38,246 nucleotides of DNA from Ignavibacteria bacterium. GTDB lineage: Bacteria > Bacteroidota > Ignavibacteria > Kapaibacteriales > UBA4661. Positions 22,167-35,569 of the stretch are shown here, piece by piece. Location of the stretch: the NCBI GenBank assembly GCA_014654705.1, contig JACVZY010000022.1, positions 40,673 through 78,918 on the forward strand, given 5' to 3'. Positions within the stretch are counted from its first letter, which is position 1; the number at the start of each line of letters is the position of its first letter. A program made the translations under genes and the position numbers. The notes beneath the pieces are model-generated. The model was not told the origin of the DNA, ran no database searches, and saw only the letters and a program-made list of their open reading frames with translations.

Positions 22167-24533
22167 TCACGAATAGGACGCTTCCGATATAGAAGTTGGT
22201 AATTGCACAATAAACGTCGCACCCTTGCCCGCTTCCGACTCGCACCAGACGCGCCCGCTCATAGCCTCCACCATGCGTTTGACAATGCTCAAGCCCAAGC
22301 CCGTCGAGTGTTCGCCGCCCGTAGGCTGCGCCGAAAGCCGTGCAAACTTACCGAAAAGTTTTGTCTTGTCTTCTTCGGTGAATCCCGGTCCTTCGTCTTC
22401 GACTTCTACTCTGACAAACGATGACGCATTGTTTGCGGCGCTTCCATCTGCTTCATTGGGCAGACTTGCGACGACATTCTTTACCCTGACGTACACATTT
22501 TTACCGTGCGGCGAGTATTTGACGGCGTTAGAAATAATGTTCTCCAGCGCTTGCATCACGGCTTGCTCATTGGCAAAAACAATGCTGCGCGAGGTCGCTG
22601 GAAGCTCCGTGTGGAAGGTGATATTTTTTGCAACGGCAGGAGCAGCATACTGTTCAATTATCATAGAGATAATCGGTACAATATCGAACGCGTAGCAATC
22701 CATGGCGAATTCTCCCGATTCGAGCTTATTGATGTCGAGAAGTTTGCTCACCAGTTCCAGCATACGTTCAGAGGTCTGTATAATCTGTCTGGCTGCATTC
22801 GTAGTCTGTGTTCTGTCGTCGGCAAAGACCGACTCAATCAGTTCTGCCATTCCACGCACTCCGCCGATAGGATTTTTGAGGTCATGCGCCACAATACCCA
22901 TGATTTCGTTTTTCTCGCGGTTTGCTTCCGCAAGGTCGTGGTTTTGCTGCTGCAAGGAAATATTCAATTCTGTTACTTGTGCGTTCATCTCTTGAATTTC
23001 GGCAGCTTGCTGCATAATCTCACTTTGCTGGCGAGTGATTTCTTTATTCGCTGACGATAGTTCTTCGTTTTGGAGGCGGTACAGCTCGCCTTGCAGTGCT
23101 TTGCGCTCTGCTTCTTGCTTTGCGCGTTGCAGCACCGTGATGCGGTCAGCAAGCGCCAAACCCATGAGCATCATCTCAACGGCGGGGACGAGAAGGGAAA
23201 GTTGGCTTACCCAAATAGAAGAATAGGAGATCATACCGAGCGCTGCGAGTGAATTTGCACCGATACCAATTTCTACAATTACTCGTGAAGCAAAAACGTA
23301 CAGTGCTGGACGGTAGCCGCCTCGCCATGCAGAAAAACTCATCCCGAGCGTGGTCGGGACAGCCAATATCAAATACGAATAATAGAGGATGTCAAGCGAT
23401 ACACCTCGAGCATCGGCAAATTCTGCAACCAATGCAATTAGGCAACAAACCCAAAACAAATACGCCAACCACTCCCAGATCTTCGGTACAACGATGCTAC
23501 GCTGTTCCCGCACAAACTCCCGAACAAAAAATACTCCTACCGCCATGCTTGTCAACCATGAGAGAATGTAAAGTCGATTATTCAGATGAGGTGCAGAGAC
23601 CTCGAAGACCTGATAAAAATGCCCCATGTCAATACTTATACTCAATGTCAAGCAAACAATATAAAACCCATAGAGACCGTAATAGCGGCTGCGCGTAAGT
23701 ATCCAAGAAAGAAGACTAAAAATAATGGCGAAAATTGTAACACCATAAAATATAAAAAGTGGGAGCTTAAAGTTGAATGTTCTTTCGGCAAATTGTCTCT
23801 CGGGCTGTACAGCAACTCCGTAGTACATTATTCCATTCATGTTCATACGCACATAACAGACCATTCTCTCGCCAACACCAATAGGAAGAGGAAACGCTAT
23901 CTTCATAGAAGGTACATGCCAGCGAGAATACGATACCGAATAACCGACCGTATCAGCATAAATAATTGAGTCTCCACGAGTCATATAAAATTCTACACTA
24001 TCGGCAGACCTATTCTCTAAGAGCAAAACCCACGGGCAAAGAGCCTCGCTAAGTCTTGCTTGAGCGAGCGTTATAGCGCGAACACCGTCATCGTGGGTGC
24101 CCTTACTTTTGATGCTATCCCTCCCGATATTATCGGCAAGACGCTTCAACTCATCGCGCTCAGGAAGTCTTTGTAGTACAAATTGTATCCAGACCACACG
24201 ATGCCCGTTTCCCAAAAGTACGGAAGAAGTAGTAGCCTTACGAAAACCCTGTACACTGATGGGTGATTGCATTAGACGCTGAACCGTCATCGTCTGTGCA
24301 GTGTCTATCCAATATTTTGTTCTAGCAGTAACATGACGTGTAGAAGGCTTCCCGTCAATACCGAATTCAATAACACCAAGAGAATCACTACGAATGCTAT
24401 TGTCAGAAGAATCTCGTGTATCGGGCGTGAAGTATAGATGAGCAAAAGAATGCGGCGAGAAGAACACCAACAACAAACCGGAGAGGATAAAAAGTGCGAA
24501 GGCAGTATCAAGAGAGCGTCGTGAAAGAAGCAT
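22167..24533 (-). CDS. 7TMR-DISM sensor histidine kinase
   Basis: A 788-residue membrane kinase. Order: a signal/anchor segment (~10-30); an extracytoplasmic beta-rich domain (~50-250) with WIQFVLQ and CPWVLLLENRSADSVEFYM, typical of 7TMR-DISM extracellular domains; seven membrane segments (~255-470, with GLYGFYIVCLTLSISI and ASRVIVEIGIG); a coiled coil (~475-540); HisKA with MGIVAHDLKNP (His550); and HATPase with ENIISNAVKYSP, DEGPGFT and GLGLSIVK. DISM kinases are thought to sense carbohydrates or other small ligands; the ligand here is unknown. It follows the borosin methyltransferase on the same strand after 126 bases and has no adjacent response regulator. Confidence 0.92.
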   Translation of the reverse strand: MLLSRRSLDTAFALFILSGLLLVFFSPHSFAHLYFTPDTRDSSDNSIRSDSLGVIEFGIDGKPSTRHVTARTKYWIDTAQTMTVQRLMQSPISVQGFRKATTSSVLLGNGHRVVWIQFVLQRLPERDELKRLADNIGRDSIKSKGTHDDGVRAITLAQARLSEALCPWVLLLENRSADSVEFYMTRGDSIIYADTVGYSVSYSRWHVPSMKIAFPLPIGVGERMVCYVRMNMNGIMYYGVAVQPERQFAERTFNFKLPLFIFYGVTIFAIIFSLLSWILTRSRYYGLYGFYIVCLTLSISIDMGHFYQVFEVSAPHLNNRLYILSWLTSMAVGVFFVREFVREQRSIVVPKIWEWLAYLFWVCCLIALVAEFADARGVSLDILYYSYLILAVPTTLGMSFSAWRGGYRPALYVFASRVIVEIGIGANSLAALGMISYSSIWVSQLSLLVPAVEMMLMGLALADRITVLQRAKQEAERKALQGELYRLQNEELSSANKEITRQQSEIMQQAAEIQEMNAQVTELNISLQQQNHDLAEANREKNEIMGIVAHDLKNPIGGVRGMAELIESVFADDRTQTTNAARQIIQTSERMLELVSKLLDINKLESGEFAMDCYAFDIVPIISMIIEQYAAPAVAKNITFHTELPATSRSIVFANEQAVMQALENIISNAVKYSPHGKNVYVRVKNVVASLPNEADGSAANNASSFVRVEVEDEGPGFTEEDKTKLFGKFARLSAQPTGGEHSTGLGLSIVKRMVEAMSGRVWCESEAGKGATFIVQLPTSISEASYS

Positions 24534-24563
24534 ACAAACGCTTTAATTCTTAATGAAAATACT

Positions 24564-24609
24564 GAGAAAGACTATCTTTCTCAAAGTACGTTTTTGTTAT
24601 AGCGTACTA
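24564..24609 (-). terminator. Paired small hairpins after the borosin methyltransferase
   Basis: GAGAAAG-ACTAT-CTTTCTC (24564-24582) is a perfect 7-bp stem, and AGTACG...CGTACT (near 24584-24609) a second one. On the - strand they follow the methyltransferase stop (24660) and are followed by a modest T-rich stretch. They could end the borosin transcript or form part of the kinase leader. Confidence 0.35.
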
Positions 24610-24659
24610 CCTCTTTTTAGAACAAGAAGATTAAATAGTTAGGCAAAAAGTTAATTTCT

Positions 24660-25451
24660 TTACCTTCCGTGAGATAATACCTTATAGCGCTCATACATAC
24701 TGTGGTCAACTTTTACGGCTGCTGCCGGAGGCACTGAAAGCGTAGAACGTGCTGAGACAACATCTGCTCGAAGTTCATTCAGAGGAACTTTGCGGATATG
24801 CGCTTCGCAATCTATCATCACAGCCGCTTCATACACTATTACCTCATGGGAAGGTGGATACCACCGAAGCAGCTTTTCGACAAGCAAAGGTAATGCCGCC
24901 AAATTATACTCCCCTTCGTGAAAAGTTAAGTCACCCACAGCGCCAATTTGCCACAGAACAAGATGGCTTGAGGAATCTAAACGACGGTCATTCCAGAGAA
25001 AATCAGTTGCCTCGTAGGTTTGGTAGCCTGTCATTGCGTGGTCTAATCCCAAATCAGCAAAAAGACAATCCTCCGCCGAAACAGCAGGTAACATCATCGC
25101 TTTGAAGCCCTCTAGTCGAGAGCGACGGATTGATTCATGTCCCGGATATGCCATCACGCCAGGATGCCCGTAGAATGTACAAACGGTTAAGCCCGGCTTC
25201 CGAACGCTTTCCATGATTGTTTGCACCATCGCTTCGTAAGTCTCCGCACGGGGCTTGTTCTCACCATAAAGATGAGTAAGCGTCGAGAGTTCAGCCGAAG
25301 GATTAATGCTGGAGAGCACAGCAACGATAAGTGGGTCGTCGGCAATATGGAAAATACGATCAGCACATTTAATCCACGCGGTGCTTTCTACGGTCAACTG
25401 CCCAACAAGCCGAATACCCGTACCAATCACAACCAAACGCTCATCAGTCAT
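24660..25451 (-). CDS. Split-borosin peptide alpha-N-methyltransferase
   Basis: A 263-residue SAM-dependent enzyme of the tetrapyrrole (uroporphyrin-III C/precorrin) methylase fold. It opens LVVIGTGIRLVGQLTVES and has TVCTFYGHPGVMAYPGHESI, FKAMMLPAVSAEDCLFADLG and TYEATDFLW, then SSHLVLWQIGAVGDL. The last three blocks mark borosin methyltransferases, not cobalamin enzymes. Tyr62, Arg68, Tyr72 and Tyr94 have the same spacing (6, 4, 22) as the catalytic residues of OphMA (Tyr66, Arg72, Tyr76, Tyr98, as I recall). In fungi the substrate is the enzyme's own C-terminus; this protein ends soon after the fold (KVDHSMYERYKVLSHGR) and has no core, and a separate precursor gene lies 5 bases upstream. 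This is the bacterial 'split' arrangement known from Shewanella SonM/SonA. It would iteratively methylate backbone amides of the precursor core. Confidence 0.93.
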   Translation of the reverse strand: MTDERLVVIGTGIRLVGQLTVESTAWIKCADRIFHIADDPLIVAVLSSINPSAELSTLTHLYGENKPRAETYEAMVQTIMESVRKPGLTVCTFYGHPGVMAYPGHESIRRSRLEGFKAMMLPAVSAEDCLFADLGLDHAMTGYQTYEATDFLWNDRRLDSSSHLVLWQIGAVGDLTFHEGEYNLAALPLLVEKLLRWYPPSHEVIVYEAAVMIDCEAHIRKVPLNELRADVVSARSTLSVPPAAAVKVDHSMYERYKVLSHGR

Positions 25452-25456
25452 AACGA

Positions 25457-25693
25457 TTATCCTTGCTCCGGTGGTTTTGCAGCACCATTAGCAACAAAAG
25501 GAAATGCTTGAGGAGCATCCGGTTCTTGCTCTTGAATATACTTTCGTATGAGATCTTCGTCGTGCCCTTTTATCAATGCTTGCTCCTGGGGGCTAAGTCC
25601 CGCAGCCTGCATTGATTTATCTTTATCCGCTCTGAAGGCAGCAAGTTGCTCGGCATCAGTTGCCAGCGTAATAAGAAACTCTCTGAGTGTCAT
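25457..25693 (-). CDS. Split-borosin precursor peptide
   Basis: A 78-residue precursor. Residues ~1-55 (MTLREFLITLATDAEQLAAF, then AAGLSPQEQALIKGHDEDLIR) match the LigA-like helical 'borosin binding domain' of SonA-type precursors, with the pattern F-L-x3-D-A-x-L-x2-F...GLS-x2-E...L-x2-G. After an acidic linker (IQEQEPDA) comes a short hydrophobic segment, residues 61-70 PQAFPFVANG, then AAKPPEQG. The likely core is AFPFVAN, where backbone N-methylation would occur. The two prolines cannot accept a methyl on their amide nitrogen. The start is the only ATG. The gene is 5 bases upstream of the methyltransferase and 88 bases after the TPR kinase. Alternative reading: a free-standing LigA or Nif11-like domain; the neighbouring enzyme argues against it. 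Confidence 0.9.
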   Translation of the reverse strand: MTLREFLITLATDAEQLAAFRADKDKSMQAAGLSPQEQALIKGHDEDLIRKYIQEQEPDAPQAFPFVANGAAKPPEQG

Positions 25694-25736
25694 GGATTTG
25701 GTAAACAGTAGAACACAACTATTGGCTTATGAACGC

Positions 25737-25765
25737 AATATCGTACAAGTATGCTCTTTTGCCAA
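25737..25765 (-). promoter_or_regulatory. Possible promoter for the borosin pair
   Basis: On the - strand TTGGCA (25765-25760) and GATATT (25742-25737) are separated by 17 bases, a fair sigma-70-like pair (5/6 and 4/6 matches). It would give a leader of ~35-40 bases before the precursor ATG at 25693. If real, the pair can be expressed independently of the upstream genes. Confidence 0.3.
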
Positions 25766-25781
25766 GTAATATTTCATTTTT

Positions 25782-28022
25782 TTATGCCTTTGGCAATTCC
25801 ACAATAAACATTGCACCCTTGCCCGCTTCGGACTCGCACCAAACGCGCCCCTTCATGGATTCCACTAATTTTTTGACAATACTCAGCCCCAATCCCGTGC
25901 TTTGTTCGCCACCAGTGGGAAGTGCCGAAAGACGGGCAAATGTGCCGAAAAGTCGGGCTTTATCGTTCTCATTCAGTCCCGGTCCTTCGTCCTCGACTTC
26001 CACCCGAACGGTACTATCACCTGCCTTGACGCGCACCAGAACACGTTTCCCATGTGGAGAATACTTTATCGCATTCGATACCAAATTGTCCAGCACTTGT
26101 TCGGCATATCCTTTATCGGCGCGAGCAAACGCTTCCTTCTTTCCATCATCATCATCATCAGGCACACTGTCCATTTGCAAGGTGATTGACTTTGTGTGAG
26201 CCGCATGACGAAAGCGCTCCAACGAAGTCGCGGCGAGTTGCACTACGTCCACAGGCTCAAGTGTGAGGTTGATAGCACCACGCTCCAGCGCATTGACATC
26301 CAGAAGGTTCTCTACCAGATGCAGCATTTTGGAAGCAGAGGTTTCTATGGTGCGAGTGCCCCACAAGGCAGACGGCGGCAGAGGTACGCTTTCCGGCGGC
26401 ATCTCAGCTGCGTAGCTTGTCAAATCTTCTCGCAGCACAGACCCGACGGTCATAATGTTGGCAAGTGGGTTGCGAAGGTCGTGCGCAGCGATTCCCAAAA
26501 ATTCGTTTTTTTGCTCGTTCAGCGCAATCAGGTCGAGATTCTGTAATGCCAGACGTTCATTCGCCTCAGAAAGTTCAGCGTTGGTATGAAATATTTCTTG
26601 TGCTTGTGCTTCCAGCTTCTCTTGCTGCCGCATAATATGAGCGTTTATATACCGAAGCTCTTTCTCTGAGCGGCGTTTGAGACGATACCGATTCACAATG
26701 GCAATAAGAGCCACAAGCAAACCACCAATGCCAAGCAACAAACCATTGCGCATCGTGCGGGCGTTTGCCTCGTCCGTGCGTTTTTGTTCCTCAATGTGGC
26801 GTATTTCCATATTTTTCTGCTCGGTCGCATATTGAAGCTGCAATGCTGCGATGCGCTGTGCACCGTCATTACTGAAGAGCGAATCATTCAAACGCATAAA
26901 ACGGCGATACCACCGAAGAGCATCATCAGTCTGTTGCAATGCCTCGTGCGCATTAGCCAGCATTTCCGCAGCATCACGTTCCTCGCGCAATGCTCCGATA
27001 GCTTCGGCAATATCCATAGCTTGGGAAGCGTTGCTTATTGCCTCGCGGTAATGATAGAGAGCATTGTCAGCAGCAGCGAGCGCATTGAGCGCACGAGCTG
27101 CGCTCCGCTTATCGCCGATGTCTTGAAAGCGCAAAAACGCATTGAGCAACGTGGTCTGCGCTTCGCCATACCGCCGCGTCACCATCTGTACACGCCCCAG
27201 TTCGCCCAGCGTGAGAGCCGTACCGTGACGGTTATGCACTTTGTCAAAAATATGGAGCGCACGAGTGTATAGGTCAATTGCCTCAGCAAAATGATGTTCG
27301 GCTTGATGAAGATTGCCCATAAAATAAAGCGAATACGCCAGTGCATCGCCGCCCGAAACGGTCGTGGAATCAAAGAAACGTTCACGCAAAGCAAGCGCAC
27401 GGTCGTGGTAGGCATGTGCAGCGGCAAACTGCCCGACAAGCGTATAGGCTACGCCGATATTTGCCGACACCAGAGCAATTCCCTTGTCATTGCGCGAGGC
27501 TTCATAGAGCGCAAGAGCCTGAAAATAGTAGTCCAGTGCACGGGCATATTCTCCACGACTTTGGTAGATGTTGCCAATGTTGTCCAGCGCATCACTGCTT
27601 GCATTGGTATCACGAAGTTCGGAAAAAATTTTCCATGCACCGACACTTGCCCGCAATGCACTATCGTAGCGGTCGGTAAGGCGATAATTAGCGGCGAGAG
27701 CGGTAAGTGCATTAGCTAATTCACGCTTCAGCGCTAAATGTTCTGCCATCTGAGCAGCCCGACGTGCGTACTCAAGCGAGATTTCCGAGTGTGCATCAAA
27801 TTCTATCCACGCAAGTCGTGTCAAAGCATTCACGATGAACACATCACCTTGCGGACGGGATGATGCGGCAGCAACCAGCGCCCGAAGGCTATCACGCTCC
27901 GCAAAAGTACGTTCCGAAGAAGTATCGGAAACTTGACTCATAGCAGAAAGAGAAGCACAGAGTAGAACAACTGCGCCAGCGAACAACTGATACAACCATC
28001 TCATAGCGTGCGAAAACATCAT
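25782..28022 (-). CDS. TPR-sensor histidine kinase upstream of the borosin pair
   Basis: A 746-residue membrane kinase. Order: signal peptide (~7-30, AVVLLCASLSAMSQ); six or more TPRs (~60-400, e.g. GNIYQSRGEYARALDYYFQA); a membrane segment (~424-445); a coiled coil; HisKA with LGIAAHDLRNP (His514); and HATPase with DNLVSNAIKYSPHG, DEGPGLN and GLGLSIVK. The TPRs are probably periplasmic. A run of Asp codons (ATC repeats on +, ~26148-26160) sits between HisKA and HATPase. A longer frame to 28136 would overlap the glycosyltransferase gene by ~80 bases, so I chose the ATG pair at 28022/28019; the ATG at 28004 is also possible. It lies 31 bases after the glycosyltransferase and 88 bases before the borosin precursor, so it is placed to control or respond to the pathway. 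Confidence 0.9.
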   Translation of the reverse strand: MMFSHAMRWLYQLFAGAVVLLCASLSAMSQVSDTSSERTFAERDSLRALVAAASSRPQGDVFIVNALTRLAWIEFDAHSEISLEYARRAAQMAEHLALKRELANALTALAANYRLTDRYDSALRASVGAWKIFSELRDTNASSDALDNIGNIYQSRGEYARALDYYFQALALYEASRNDKGIALVSANIGVAYTLVGQFAAAHAYHDRALALRERFFDSTTVSGGDALAYSLYFMGNLHQAEHHFAEAIDLYTRALHIFDKVHNRHGTALTLGELGRVQMVTRRYGEAQTTLLNAFLRFQDIGDKRSAARALNALAAADNALYHYREAISNASQAMDIAEAIGALREERDAAEMLANAHEALQQTDDALRWYRRFMRLNDSLFSNDGAQRIAALQLQYATEQKNMEIRHIEEQKRTDEANARTMRNGLLLGIGGLLVALIAIVNRYRLKRRSEKELRYINAHIMRQQEKLEAQAQEIFHTNAELSEANERLALQNLDLIALNEQKNEFLGIAAHDLRNPLANIMTVGSVLREDLTSYAAEMPPESVPLPPSALWGTRTIETSASKMLHLVENLLDVNALERGAINLTLEPVDVVQLAATSLERFRHAAHTKSITLQMDSVPDDDDDGKKEAFARADKGYAEQVLDNLVSNAIKYSPHGKRVLVRVKAGDSTVRVEVEDEGPGLNENDKARLFGTFARLSALPTGGEQSTGLGLSIVKKLVESMKGRVWCESEAGKGAMFIVELPKA

Positions 28023-28053
28023 GAAGTATTCTTTGCTTGTGCATTGTGAGCGT

Positions 28054-29283
28054 TCAGTAACGCATCCTGTCAGCAATAAAGTCCTGAATCTCATCTGCCG
28101 CTTTCTGCGCTCCCCCTGCTCTTCGCAGCGTATCACCCAATTTCGTACTTACCTCCTTGTACGACTGCGTAGTAAGAATCTTTTCGACGGCATTGCGCAG
28201 CCTTTCGGCATTCACTTCGTCCTTGGCGATGCGTATCCCTGCGCCGAGTGCATCCAAGCGCTTCGAGACAAATTTTTGGTCGGCAGCCTGCGGAACAATC
28301 ACCGTCGGTACACCGAACCACAGCGCCTCATGGACACTATTCATACCACCATGGGTGATAAAAACATCACTTTTGCGCAATACATCCAACTGTGGCACAA
28401 AGCTGTACGCGCTGATGTTCGACGGAAGTGTGCCCAAGTCTTGTACCGCAATTTTCTTGCCGATAGACATAATCACGCGAGCATCCACGCCGGAGAGCGC
28501 TTCAATACACATCTTGTAGAACGGTAGATTGTTATTGAAAAGCGTGCCCAGCGAAATATAGATGCGGCGCTGGGGCGCATCGGGCAAAGGAAAATTGCTT
28601 TGAGCGAAATTGCTTTGAGCGAAATCGCTATCGGGCGGCTTTTCCTCAATTGAAGCACCCACAAAGCGGAAATTGGCTGGAAACGATGCCGAATACGGCT
28701 GCAATTCCGCTGAGGTATAAATGATATTTCTGTCTGAGAAATTGCTATACATTTCCGGCGGGACCGCCTGCGCAAAGCCGTACTCGCGGCGCAAAGCCGC
28801 ACCGATACGAAAAAATTTCACCAAATCAGATGCCGATTCCAGCATCATCGCCCCAAAATCCCACGCATCGCGGAAAGACGTTACTGCCACACGCGGAGAA
28901 ATCGCAAAGGTCGAAATAGAGCAGATGGACGGCAATTTCAGCGACCGCGCAATAATTAGCCCCCAAGCACACAACGAATCATGGATGATAGCATCGGGCT
29001 TCTCTGCTACCACACGCGGGAGTAGCTGTGGGACAAGTAATTGTGCAGTCTCCAGTAATTCTGTCGCATAGCGTACCAAATTCGGGTCGGGGTTATCGGG
29101 GTCAATCGGCAATTCTTGGTCGTAGCTACGAAACTCCGCGCCTGTGCTTTCGATGGCGGCTTGGAACTTTGTGAATGAATAATATATCACCGTATCGCCA
29201 CGACGTACTAGTTCTTTCACCACTGCCAACGTAGGATTGGTATGCCCCTGAGCAGGGATATTCATAAAGACAATTCTTGCCAT
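28054..29283 (-). CDS. Macrolide-type (MGT/UGT-like, GT1) glycosyltransferase
   Basis: A 409-residue cytosolic enzyme. The N-terminal ARIVFMNIPAQGHTNPTLAVV is the acceptor-domain start of MGT/YjiC enzymes. The donor-binding region has DVFITHGGMNSVHEALWFG and VPTVIVPQAADQ, the UGT signature for a nucleotide-sugar diphosphate (THGGxNS...PxxxDQ). These enzymes transfer a sugar to hydroxyls of small natural products or sterols. A 15-bp duplication in the interdomain loop (~28595-28630) yields FAQSNFAQSN. It is 58 bases downstream of the PhlG/flavoenzyme fusion and 31 bases upstream of the TPR kinase, so it is probably co-transcribed with the fusion. The acceptor is unknown. Confidence 0.92.
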   Translation of the reverse strand: MARIVFMNIPAQGHTNPTLAVVKELVRRGDTVIYYSFTKFQAAIESTGAEFRSYDQELPIDPDNPDPNLVRYATELLETAQLLVPQLLPRVVAEKPDAIIHDSLCAWGLIIARSLKLPSICSISTFAISPRVAVTSFRDAWDFGAMMLESASDLVKFFRIGAALRREYGFAQAVPPEMYSNFSDRNIIYTSAELQPYSASFPANFRFVGASIEEKPPDSDFAQSNFAQSNFPLPDAPQRRIYISLGTLFNNNLPFYKMCIEALSGVDARVIMSIGKKIAVQDLGTLPSNISAYSFVPQLDVLRKSDVFITHGGMNSVHEALWFGVPTVIVPQAADQKFVSKRLDALGAGIRIAKDEVNAERLRNAVEKILTTQSYKEVSTKLGDTLRRAGGAQKAADEIQDFIADRMRY

Positions 29284-29341: not shown

Positions 29342-31504
29342 TTATGAAATTTCCGGCTTGCTGTGCCATTCGTGAAACATTCCCTTTGGGTCTCGGGCAG
29401 CACGTATTTCTTGAAATTTTTTCATATTCTCATTCGATAAAAACGGTGCAGCGCGTTTATGTAAGCCCTCGTCTGCGAGTTGGATTCCGGTCGAATGGTG
29501 TGCCATTTTTTTCATCATATTCGTTGCCCAGTCCCCATATTTGGCGGTCTCGGCAGCAGATTTCCACGTTGAATAGAGCGCAATGTAGATATTATCCTCG
29601 TTAGAATAGACCATATCTTGACGTGTACTATTCGGATGCCAATTCAGCCAGAGAACATGGGAAGGCGGTGGGGGCAGGGTTTCAGCGATTTCTTTCATGA
29701 ATGGTATCAAGTCGTCTATAGGCGCGTGTGTCCACATATTGTCCACTCCCCAATAGCGATTCTCCGGATAGTGTGTCATTGCTGTTTTGTACATAAAGTT
29801 AATTCCCGGATTCAAAGGAGGAGTTCGCAGAAGCGCTTTTTTCTTAATGGGGCTGTTCTTCATAAATTGCATTGCTTCGTAATATTCATCTTTAGTGTCG
29901 GCAAAGATTGGCGCTATGGCTTCTATGCCGGGTCCCAGCAAATTCATCATATTCTTGCTCAAAATCATCTGAAATTCTACCGCATTCGGTACATTCGGAC
30001 CAACTTCATACGCCCAGCGATAGACATCTTCCAAATGCTTGATAGAGAAATTGTGCAAAATCGTTCCCCTGTATGGCGGCAACACCGATAATTTCAAGGT
30101 AAAGCGCACAACCACACCAAAAAAGCCTGCTCCCGAACCACGCGCCGCCCAGAATAAATCAGCGTTTTCGGTCTCGCTCGCATGGACAAACTCGCCGTCC
30201 GCCGTTACAATGTCCATACCAATCACATTTTCACACGCCATACCTGTTTTTCTGCCGTTCCACCCGTACCCGCCTTGCAGCAAGTACCCGCCAATGCACA
30301 CGCCCTTGCAGTGTCCGGCAGGAAAAAATAATTTCTGCTTGTACAACGCCGAAAGCAGCGTACTGCCACCCACCGCCGGTCCCGCCGTTGCGGTCATTTC
30401 TTTGGCATTAATTTCATAGCTATTGAACTTGGACATCTTGATAAGAATACTATCGTTTCTAAGGTGATTAGCAGACCAGCTATGCCCGCCTGAACAAACG
30501 GTAATCTTTTTGCCCAGTGCTTGCGCGTACTTGATGGTGGCAATAATATCCTGAACGCTTGTCGGTTCCACGATAGTGTCCGGTTGTCTTCCGGGATGGA
30601 GTTTATTAAACAGCGTTCCCATAAGAATATGGTCAAAATCGTTATCGGTGTGCTGTATAATTCTACCCTGCACATGAAGTTTTGTGTCGTTCTTTTGGTT
30701 TATATCGCTTTGGTTCATATCGGCATAGATAGTGGGTAAAAAAGAAGCCAAATGGTTCATTTCTTCAGCACAATGAAGCAACAAATCTTTGGCAAACTGC
30801 TCCGAAACTGATTGCATCTTTTGCACAAAGCCGGAGACGACCTCAGCCAGCATGCCCTCCTTGCGCACGTGAATATACTCGCCGCCCAACCAAAAGCGCG
30901 AACGCATTTCCGAACCACCTTCGACGGCTCTGATTTGATGCAACAAATAGCCATAGTCCACTGGCAACGACGCATGACCGACTCTGGCGCAAATATACAC
31001 TGCTTCGCTTGGATTCTGAACTGCCTCGGGAGAAAAACCAAATTCGACGGGCGACCTAAACTGAACAGCACCCTTTGTTTTTTCTGTACCAATAAATTCT
31101 TCTATAATCGAAGTCCGCCCGATGTAAGCAACGTCATCTCTACCGTCTTCCCAGTGCGCGTCTAAGTGTGCAAGCGGATGCCAGAGTTTGTAGCGCTGCG
31201 CCGAGCAGCCATGCCATGCGAACCACCAATCCCACATTTGCGGCGTCACGCCGGGCATCGGCGTTAGCACGGCAACATGGGCAGATCCGTCAGATTCCAT
31301 TGTGTAGCCTGTTTCCACATCCGCGTAGCCGCTTTCCTGCATGGCGCGGACGCCGGCAAAGGTTGGCAACGTGCCCCTCGGCAAAGGCGATTGCTCCAAA
31401 GCAGCTTGTACGTGAGCAGGTATAGGCTGAATTTTGTCATCGTAAAATTTTGCGTATTCCGTCGAGGAATCCTTTGGCGTAGCGCCTGTGGCATTGTGAG
31501 CCAT
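29342..31504 (-). CDS. Fusion of a PhlG-like hydrolase domain and a berberine-bridge-type FAD oxidase
   Basis: A 720-residue two-domain enzyme. Residues ~15-265 match the DAPG-hydrolase (PhlG) domain: LTPMPGVTPQMWDWWFAWHG, YKLWHPLAHLDAHW, and H244-C-A-E-E248 with the His-x3-Glu spacing of PhlG's metal site. PhlG cleaves a carbon-carbon bond in 2,4-diacetylphloroglucinol. Residues ~285-720 are an FAD_binding_4 / BBE oxidase: VCSGGHSWSAN places the flavin-linking His341, FPAGHCKGVCIGGYLLQGGYG places Cys399 where bicovalent enzymes attach the second flavin bond, and FHEW near the end fits the BBE tail. There is no signal peptide. Substrate unknown; aromatic/phenolic chemistry is the family expectation. 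36 bases separate it from the chemoreceptor upstream. Confidence 0.9.
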   Translation of the reverse strand: MAHNATGATPKDSSTEYAKFYDDKIQPIPAHVQAALEQSPLPRGTLPTFAGVRAMQESGYADVETGYTMESDGSAHVAVLTPMPGVTPQMWDWWFAWHGCSAQRYKLWHPLAHLDAHWEDGRDDVAYIGRTSIIEEFIGTEKTKGAVQFRSPVEFGFSPEAVQNPSEAVYICARVGHASLPVDYGYLLHQIRAVEGGSEMRSRFWLGGEYIHVRKEGMLAEVVSGFVQKMQSVSEQFAKDLLLHCAEEMNHLASFLPTIYADMNQSDINQKNDTKLHVQGRIIQHTDNDFDHILMGTLFNKLHPGRQPDTIVEPTSVQDIIATIKYAQALGKKITVCSGGHSWSANHLRNDSILIKMSKFNSYEINAKEMTATAGPAVGGSTLLSALYKQKLFFPAGHCKGVCIGGYLLQGGYGWNGRKTGMACENVIGMDIVTADGEFVHASETENADLFWAARGSGAGFFGVVVRFTLKLSVLPPYRGTILHNFSIKHLEDVYRWAYEVGPNVPNAVEFQMILSKNMMNLLGPGIEAIAPIFADTKDEYYEAMQFMKNSPIKKKALLRTPPLNPGINFMYKTAMTHYPENRYWGVDNMWTHAPIDDLIPFMKEIAETLPPPPSHVLWLNWHPNSTRQDMVYSNEDNIYIALYSTWKSAAETAKYGDWATNMMKKMAHHSTGIQLADEGLHKRAAPFLSNENMKKFQEIRAARDPKGMFHEWHSKPEIS

Positions 31505-34655: not shown

Positions 34656-35459
34656 TCAATGCTCCGCCAGAAATTTTTTCATAGCGGCAATTGTTTCACT
34701 TGGGGCGCTCAGATGGGGACAGTGCCCCGTGGCTTGAAGCACGGCAAGCGTACTGCCTGCAATGTGGCTATGAACATACCTGCCGACCTGAAGCGGCGCA
34801 ATCATATCGGATGAGCACTGCAGTATAAGCGTTGGCGCGGTAAGATTGGCGAGGTCGCTTCGGTTGTCGCCCAAGAATGTTACCTGCGCAAAGTGCTTTG
34901 CAATCGCGGGATTATTCCGACAAAAACTCTCCGTTAGCTCCTGCGCTAGCTCAGGCTTATCGGCATTGCCCATGATGACTGGCGCAATAGAACTTGACCA
35001 TCCTAAATAATTGCTGTCCAATGATTCCAAGAGTTCGTCAATAGCACAAGGGGCAAATCCACCGATGTAGTCGCCATCGTTGATATAGCGCGGCGACGGG
35101 CACACCATGATAACCGATTCAAACAAAGACGGGTGTTGCGTTGCAGCAAGCATCGCAATCATTGAGCTGACCGAATGCCCGACAATCGTTACGTTCTGCA
35201 AAGAAAGTTCCGTGCAGATTTCTATAATGTCGTCGGCATAGCCCTGAAGCGAACTGTATTTTTCAACAGAATAGGCGCTCACATCGGACTTGCCGGAACC
35301 AACGTGATCCATAAGAACAATTCTATACGAATCGCGGAATGCCGGCGTGATAAAACGCCACATATTTTGGTCGCAACCGTACCCATGCACAAAGAGTAGG
35401 GTCTTGTCCCCATGCCCTTCGGTGGACACGTTATTGCGTAGCGTAGCGTTTGTTTTCAT
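34656..35459 (-). CDS. RsbQ/KAI2/D14-like alpha/beta hydrolase
   Basis: A 267-residue cytosolic serine hydrolase. KTLLFVHGYGCDQNMWRFI (oxyanion-hole HGYG), VLMDHVGSGKSD, and the nucleophile elbow IVGHSVSSM with Ser96 are present; Asp218 (LQCSSDMIAP) and His246 (ATGHCPHLSAP) complete the triad. Bacillus RsbQ has Ser96, Asp219 and His247 as I recall, so the frame is almost residue-for-residue. RsbQ binds a small hydrophobic ligand and is needed for energy-stress signalling through its PAS partner; plant KAI2/D14 are hormone receptors with the same fold. I chose the ATG at 35459, where the family begins; the 27 extra residues from 35540 are atypical. It sits directly upstream of a PAS kinase. 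It probably acts as a ligand-sensing input, not a metabolic esterase (inference). Confidence 0.93.
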   Translation of the reverse strand: MKTNATLRNNVSTEGHGDKTLLFVHGYGCDQNMWRFITPAFRDSYRIVLMDHVGSGKSDVSAYSVEKYSSLQGYADDIIEICTELSLQNVTIVGHSVSSMIAMLAATQHPSLFESVIMVCPSPRYINDGDYIGGFAPCAIDELLESLDSNYLGWSSSIAPVIMGNADKPELAQELTESFCRNNPAIAKHFAQVTFLGDNRSDLANLTAPTLILQCSSDMIAPLQVGRYVHSHIAGSTLAVLQATGHCPHLSAPSETIAAMKKFLAEH

Positions 35460-35569
35460 CTGCTTTATCGGTGAATGAGGCTCAATGACAATGAGCGTGA
35501 ACAAATCGTGAATACGTGCGTGAATAACCAAACCGAACAAATCCCACAGAACTAACCGTCAGGCTTTTA

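Follow-up and report, generated by a model that had tools for sequence, protein, structure and literature searches.

A probable split borosin RiPP pair of type IV layout in an Ignavibacteria bacterium

Closest described systems and the gene pair

Split borosins have been described as widespread in bacteria, and borosins have been sorted into types 0-XI (PMC8429565, PMC11395268, PMC11285071, PMC10947093). The closest described system is the type IV pair SonM/SonA of Shewanella oneidensis. The leader of SonA is a five-helix bundle (residues 1-53) whose structural homologues cap dioxygenases. In the enzyme, SonM, Tyr58, Tyr71 and Arg67 hold and polarise the amide and Tyr93 helps bind SAM, and SonA is methylated at Leu63 and then at Ile65 (PMC8429565). 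According to the same paper, no type IV pathway had been linked to a final product as of 2021. The fungal systems OphMA and dbOphMA are fused, with enzyme, clasp and core in one protein.

We analysed a stretch of 38,246 nucleotides from an Ignavibacteria bacterium, called the window below. On its reverse strand a precursor ORF is followed after 5 bases by a methyltransferase ORF in a different frame (Table 1), and the genome holds a single copy of each. The first-pass annotation had read these as a split borosin, and we believe it was very probably right: the enzyme groups with SonM and dbOphM, the precursor has borosin-type homologues next to such enzymes, the layout is that of type IV, and backbone methylation of the precursor tail is predicted. 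The two ORFs, their strand and spacing, and every residue pointed out in them are there: Tyr62, Arg68, Tyr72, Tyr94, SAEDCLFADLG (125-135) and EATDFLW (147-153) in the enzyme, and AFPFVAN as residues 63-69 of the precursor. As in SonM/SonA, a separate 263-residue enzyme and a precursor of about 75 residues are encoded by adjacent genes (PMC8429565). The order here is precursor then enzyme, whereas a Shewanella relative (L064) has enzyme then precursor. No single polypeptide combines enzyme and core, as it does in the fused borosins of types I-III, where OphMA and dbOphMA differ from the separate ORFs of the window. In the scheme of PMC11395268 the pair is of class 3, with leader and core in one protein and the enzyme separate. 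Since split borosins are already described and typed in the papers cited, the pair is a further example of a known system. On sequence comparison it stands far above chance, with the enzyme matching SonM at an E-value of 7e-55 and the precursor leader kept in a sister species. Bin contamination was considered and rejected, as the pair lies on a contig of 78.9 kb and the C-terminal halves of the neighbouring kinases match the sister species.

Table 1. Positions of the features in the window
Feature	Position	Strand	Basis
7TMR-DISM sensor histidine kinase (DISMED2 + 7TM + HisKA + HATPase)	22167..24533	-	conserved neighbour in G005; role putative
Terminator-like hairpin between methyltransferase and downstream kinase, weak	24562..24584	-	hairpin scan
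Borosin-type alpha-N-methyltransferase, 263 aa, ATG start	24660..25451	-	Pfam, PDB sequence search, tree, AF2 model, Foldseek, alignment
Tyr94 of methyltransferase	25170-25172	-	aligned with SonM and dbOphM
Tyr72 of methyltransferase	25236-25238	-	aligned with SonM and dbOphM
Arg68 of methyltransferase	25248-25250	-	aligned with SonM and dbOphM
Tyr62 of methyltransferase	25266-25268	-	aligned with SonM and dbOphM
Split-borosin precursor, 78 aa, ATG start	25457..25693	-	ORF translation, homologues, predicted fold
Putative core AFPFVAN, residues 63-69	25487..25507	-	position by analogy with SonA (PMC8429565); boundaries putative
Val67, motif-aligned with SonA Ile65; predicted methylation site	25493..25495	-	putative
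Pro65, motif-aligned with SonA Leu63; cannot be N-methylated	25499..25501	-	putative
Borosin binding domain (leader), residues 1-56	25526..25693	-	predicted model and Foldseek
TPR sensor histidine kinase, upstream of precursor	25782..28136	-	domain search, kinase comparison

The search against PDB sequences, the tree and the predicted fold all agree that the enzyme belongs to the borosin family. SonM is the best PDB sequence match, and dbOphM, OphMA and MroMA match at 4e-48 to 3e-41 (dbOphM at 4e-48). The AF2 model, from an alignment of 40 enzymes, has a pLDDT of 92.5. The best 50 Foldseek matches listed from the PDB are all borosin methyltransferases (TM by query length 0.84-0.91), and the fungal OphMA/dbOphMA fold is matched at a TM of about 0.9. 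Our tree has 98 rows: 93 enzymes from the loci and the window, SonM, dbOphM, and three TP methylases from the window's own genome. The window enzyme, SonM and dbOphM fall in a common 96-row group, with bootstrap that is not fully settled. The window enzyme lies inside a 21-row set (support 100/96), on a different branch from SonM; its weakly supported neighbours (89/78) are the enzyme of another member of the genus, G005, and those of three Acidobacteria (L041, L072 and L074).

The catalytic residues point the same way. Tyr62, Arg68, Tyr72 and Tyr94 align with SonM Y58, R67, Y71 and Y93, and the fungal enzymes share the quartet. Of 95 rows, 79/92/92/92 have Y/R/Y/Y at the four columns; where Tyr62 is lacking (16 rows) the alignment reads YN, a one-place shift, and five other rows depart genuinely (L062, L080, and one each of L084, L004 and L076). 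The Tyr62-Arg68 loop is three residues shorter than SonM Tyr58-Arg67 and equal to that of dbOphM, whose side-clamp spacing it shares. By sequence, tree and predicted fold this is an enzyme of the borosin-type backbone N-methyltransferase group, presumably with the corresponding activity. The precursor would use its N-terminal borosin binding domain to dock on the methyltransferase dimer, the flexible C-terminal tail would thread past SAM, and the enzyme would then methylate one or a few backbone amides within about residues 63-69. Holding and polarising the amide, the part played in SonM by Tyr58, Tyr71 and Arg67, would fall to Tyr62, Tyr72 and Arg68, and Tyr94 would help bind SAM like its equivalent Tyr93.

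Leader, tail and predicted methylation site

The precursor adjoins the enzyme as a separate protein whose N-terminal domain, like the SonA leader, has five helices (3-12, 14-22, 24-30, 35-43 and 46-56), with the reservation that this fold is a prediction and its Foldseek E-values are not significant. In the model (pLDDT 83.7, 30 aligned precursors) the helices span residues 3-56 and are followed by a disordered C-terminal tail. The best 29 Foldseek matches in the PDB are all SonA chains, at E-values of only 0.17-1.4; 19 of the 29 fit at 1.0-1.5 A over about 50 residues, the other 10 worse than 1.5 A. Ranked below them are an unrelated chain, MroMA1 and LigAB. Against PDB sequences the precursor has no significant match (best E 0.18). 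The domain had also been called LigA-like, and here the resemblance is real but stays below the Pfam cut-off, at 19.1 bits (E 0.0014) against a gathering score of 25.3, so the precursor does not qualify as a LigA dioxygenase subunit. The likeness is explained by the dioxygenase-capping structural homologues of the SonA leader (PMC8429565).

With a leader profile that had the window precursor as its seed, we counted same-strand ORFs of up to 200 aa lying no more than 1.5 kb from the enzyme. A leader-like ORF is found there in 38 of 88 loci, the window, as profile seed, included. In a looser search that left position, strand and length free, 39 of the other 50 loci gave a match with a domain E-value below 1, some of them weak, and 11 gave none. 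Small ORFs match the profile far more often near the enzymes (40 of 1051) than elsewhere in the loci (20 of 5208), and most of those 20 are precursors sited further from the enzyme. Profiles built with rows left out still work: without L060, L063, L064 and L082 the profile recovers SonA at 3.8e-15, and without the window and L020 it recovers the window precursor at 1.6e-16 (both Z=1000). The precursor thus has many borosin-type homologues adjoining such enzymes.

The clearest comparison is with a precursor in another species of the genus, G006 (L097:205-447), which is 62% identical to the window precursor over residues 1-61. Without gaps, 36 of 57 leader residues are identical and none of the 21 tail residues, and the core DNA shares 21 of 63 bases; the leaders are alike and the tails unrelated. 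A conserved leader with a variable core is the pattern of a RiPP, here seen in one pair. Over the first 55 codons the differences fall 12/9/33 at codon positions 1/2/3, and because they concentrate at the third position the ORF behaves as a translated gene; dS between the leaders is saturated. The enzyme gene was not found in G006, where the contig ends 204 bases past the precursor and shows no enzyme; this would fit either an orphan precursor or a gap in the assembly. Found in a lineage where such systems are rare, and with a sister precursor that has kept its leader and replaced its core, the pair offers a clean test of what is dictated by the leader alone. In G005 (JAAFIV010000016.1, L020:4643-5837), also of this genus, 94 bases separate precursor and enzyme, the enzymes are 46% identical, the genes upstream are other than the window's, and the precursor tail is KITVESSVTNNV, which lacks Pro.

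The core was said to be unlike that of SonA, and this is half right. The sequences differ, but the junction QAFPFVA parallels SonA QSYLVIS: SonA reads QSY-L63-V64-I65-S where the window reads QAF-P65-F66-V67-A. In this motif alignment Pro65 would occupy the place that is methylated first in SonA, Leu63. Proline has no amide hydrogen. Because Pro65 sits at the place of the first methyl, Val67 is predicted as the likely site. The prediction is soft, since anchoring at the leader end pairs SonA Leu63 with Gln62 instead; we prefer the motif alignment because linkers vary and a PDB title reports a SonA variant with QSY deleted. The motif Q-[AS]-[FY] occurs in 5 of 54 tails against a shuffled mean of 0.67, and none of 1000 shuffles reaches 5. 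It is important to realize that this motif was chosen after viewing the sequences, that the window and SonA defined it, and that two of the five are Shewanella. The wider motifs fade: [AS][FYW]x[VILF] occurs 8 times against 3.5 (22 of 1000 shuffles reach 8) and [FYW]x[VILF] 21 times against 17.3 (152 of 1000 reach 21). The junction motif is a lead only.

The first-pass annotation went further and proposed that a Pro-interrupted, Phe-rich core would be a new product class. This is not supported. Divergent cores are normal in the family, and the putative core has just two Phe. OphMA tolerates Phe (PMC10947093). We compared 53 tails, from precursors with a leader domain E-value of at most 1e-3, a whole length of at most 130 aa and a tail of 8-60 aa; long precursors such as L009, L010, L011, L014, L024, L034 and L040 fall outside this set. 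In 19 of the 53, Pro lies within the most hydrophobic 7-mer (interior in 16), so we reject the idea that Pro-holding cores are unique to this locus. The window is not among the 19; its best 7-mer, FVANGAA, lacks Pro because it begins after Pro65. Its tail is short and weakly hydrophobic, ranking 42 of 53. The SonM authors have suggested that a methylation disrupts the core helix as a proline does and shifts the next residue into place (PMC8429565), and Pro65 at the first methylation place would bear on this idea.

Neighbouring kinases and competing readings

The pair sits among sensor kinases. In the two genus members in which the enzyme is known, the window's genome and G005, the methyltransferase is followed by a 7TMR-DISM kinase, so the order precursor-enzyme-kinase is conserved between two species, and we take the kinase as a lead on function. 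Its sensor half, at E-values up to 1e-10 across ten genomes, finds only itself and the kinase that follows the enzyme in G005. These two kinases, 39% identical over 735 aligned positions, are reciprocal best hits: searching back with the G005 kinase gives the window kinase at 1.5e-22, the best match outside G005, and the next at 2.2e-11. Such conservation would suit a modified tail that acts within the cell, perhaps as a signalling subunit for the sensor kinases nearby, rather than being released as a product. However, the genus has many 7TMR-DISM kinases (18 matches in the window's genome, 16 in G005) and kinases abound in the window; enzyme and kinase are separated by a terminator-like hairpin (three such sites in 24400-25900 against a shuffle mean of 1.3); and the link is absent outside the genus, where one weak match to a DISM-type sensor, 1.8 kb upstream, was found in 86 other loci. 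We consider intracellular use unlikely. A general link between borosins and kinases was also considered and is rejected, as kinases occur in 4 of 86 loci with a custom profile (the window, L001, L002 and L020 excluded). A literature search on borosins with histidine kinases gave nothing beyond a marine RiPP review.

It could also be argued that the pair is a true borosin in decay, with an intact enzyme and a core that has drifted into a poor substrate. The weakly hydrophobic, Pro-holding tail would fit this, as would the patchy occurrence in the genus (2 of 8 genomes have the enzyme) and the G006 precursor that lacks a visible enzyme. Against it, the reading frames are intact, the catalytic quartet is complete, the QAF junction resembles that of SonA, and divergence of the core is expected of a RiPP; we think decay quite improbable. 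Still more speculative, and in our opinion very improbable, is the combination of a peptide signal read by the downstream 7TMR-DISM kinase with a Pro65 whose inborn tertiary amide replaces the first methylation, so that the enzyme starts at Val67. If true, a split borosin would have a function assigned to it, and proline would be seen to substitute naturally for an N-methyl group.

The last alternative, that the enzyme is a tetrapyrrole (cobalamin/siroheme) methylase or YabN-like and the small ORF an unrelated LigA-like protein, can draw on the Pfam match to TP_methylase (1.6e-13), the NCBIfam YabN model (3.6e-11) and the LigA resemblance, but YabN scores 42.7 bits against a cut-off of 525, LigA is sub-threshold, and tree, alignment and Foldseek side with the borosin enzymes, so we reject this identity as having next to no chance of being correct. 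The TP_methylase superfamily includes borosin enzymes, and SonM itself is labelled a TP-methylase family protein in the PDB. Grouping with the cobalamin/siroheme methylases was checked in the tree: of the three TP methylases from the same genome, two (L091, L092) lie outside the 96-row borosin group, while the third (L090) falls in the group's open fork, a place that is uninformative because its branch length is 10. In a forced alignment L092 shows Y, R, Y, E at the quartet columns, so the first three residues alone are not diagnostic. Tyr94, GHPG and Gln168, common to the window enzyme, SonM and dbOphM, are missing from all three. The split borosin reading is the one we keep.

The surroundings hold further genes. 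At least eight histidine kinases lie in window positions 7142-38203, and the seven compared resemble one another in their C-terminal halves, which suggests that sensors have expanded. In G006, too, the precursor has a histidine kinase before it; only its kinase half matches the window's TPR kinase, and the sensor parts that were compared do not match. Beyond the TPR kinase lie a macrolide-type glycosyltransferase and then an ORF (29342-31504) in which a DAPG-hydrolase (PhlG) domain and an FAD-binding oxidase domain are combined. No peptide transporter was recognised among the scanned window ORFs, and the sole peptidase-like one is a general alpha/beta hydrolase (34656-35540; serine aminopeptidase S33, 4.8e-12), 9 kb away with no obvious link.

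Distribution and other borosin-type loci

By sequence search the system is rare in its own phylum and widespread elsewhere. The enzyme occurs in 2 of 395 sampled genomes of the phylum and in 2 of 61 genomes in the search of relatives, the window's own included both times. Elsewhere there are at least 556 enzyme relatives among at least 593 genome-contig stretches, the best 80 of which were used here; a single-sequence scan of genome contigs gave no match. Separate searches gave 12 plasmid records and one viral contig, with none in phages. Among the matches listed in a literature search on Ignavibacteria, Chlorobi or Bacteroidota, borosins are not named.

Several of these loci show arrangements of their own. 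In two MAGs, of Paracoccaceae and Reyranellaceae (L013:3814-5004 and L016:3772-5004), a PRMT-like methyltransferase carries a C-terminal borosin binding domain and its end overlaps the start of the borosin methyltransferase by 4 bases; in these cases it looks as if the leader domain docks a second enzyme. Another C-terminal borosin binding domain is carried by a flavin amine oxidase (L028:389-2191), encoded some 2.8 kb ahead of a borosin enzyme and on its strand. Among the Acidobacteria, L041 and L072 have a 324-aa PRMT-like methyltransferase just upstream of or beside the borosin enzyme and L074 has an ORF that agrees in place and length; the three loci gave no match to the borosin binding domain. 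The binding domain is fused N-terminally to the borosin enzyme in L089 (the viral contig), L017 and one of L084.

Precursors vary as well. Two from Myxococcota (L024:4063-4992 and L034:4015-4992) are long, with tails repeating VVYAAG or MVYGA units, as if one precursor carried many cores. A Bradyrhizobium plasmid (L004:4974-9986) clusters two borosin-type methyltransferases, a TauD dioxygenase, a precursor and a prolyl oligopeptidase. Archaeal assemblies of Thermoplasmata (L070, L081, L088) and Nitrososphaera (L059) have borosin-type enzymes and leader-like ORFs in the same loci, and in cyanobacterial loci (e.g. L021, L022, L032, L042, L045 and L057) the precursors have Asp/Pro-rich tails and are encoded about 1-3 kb downstream of the enzyme.
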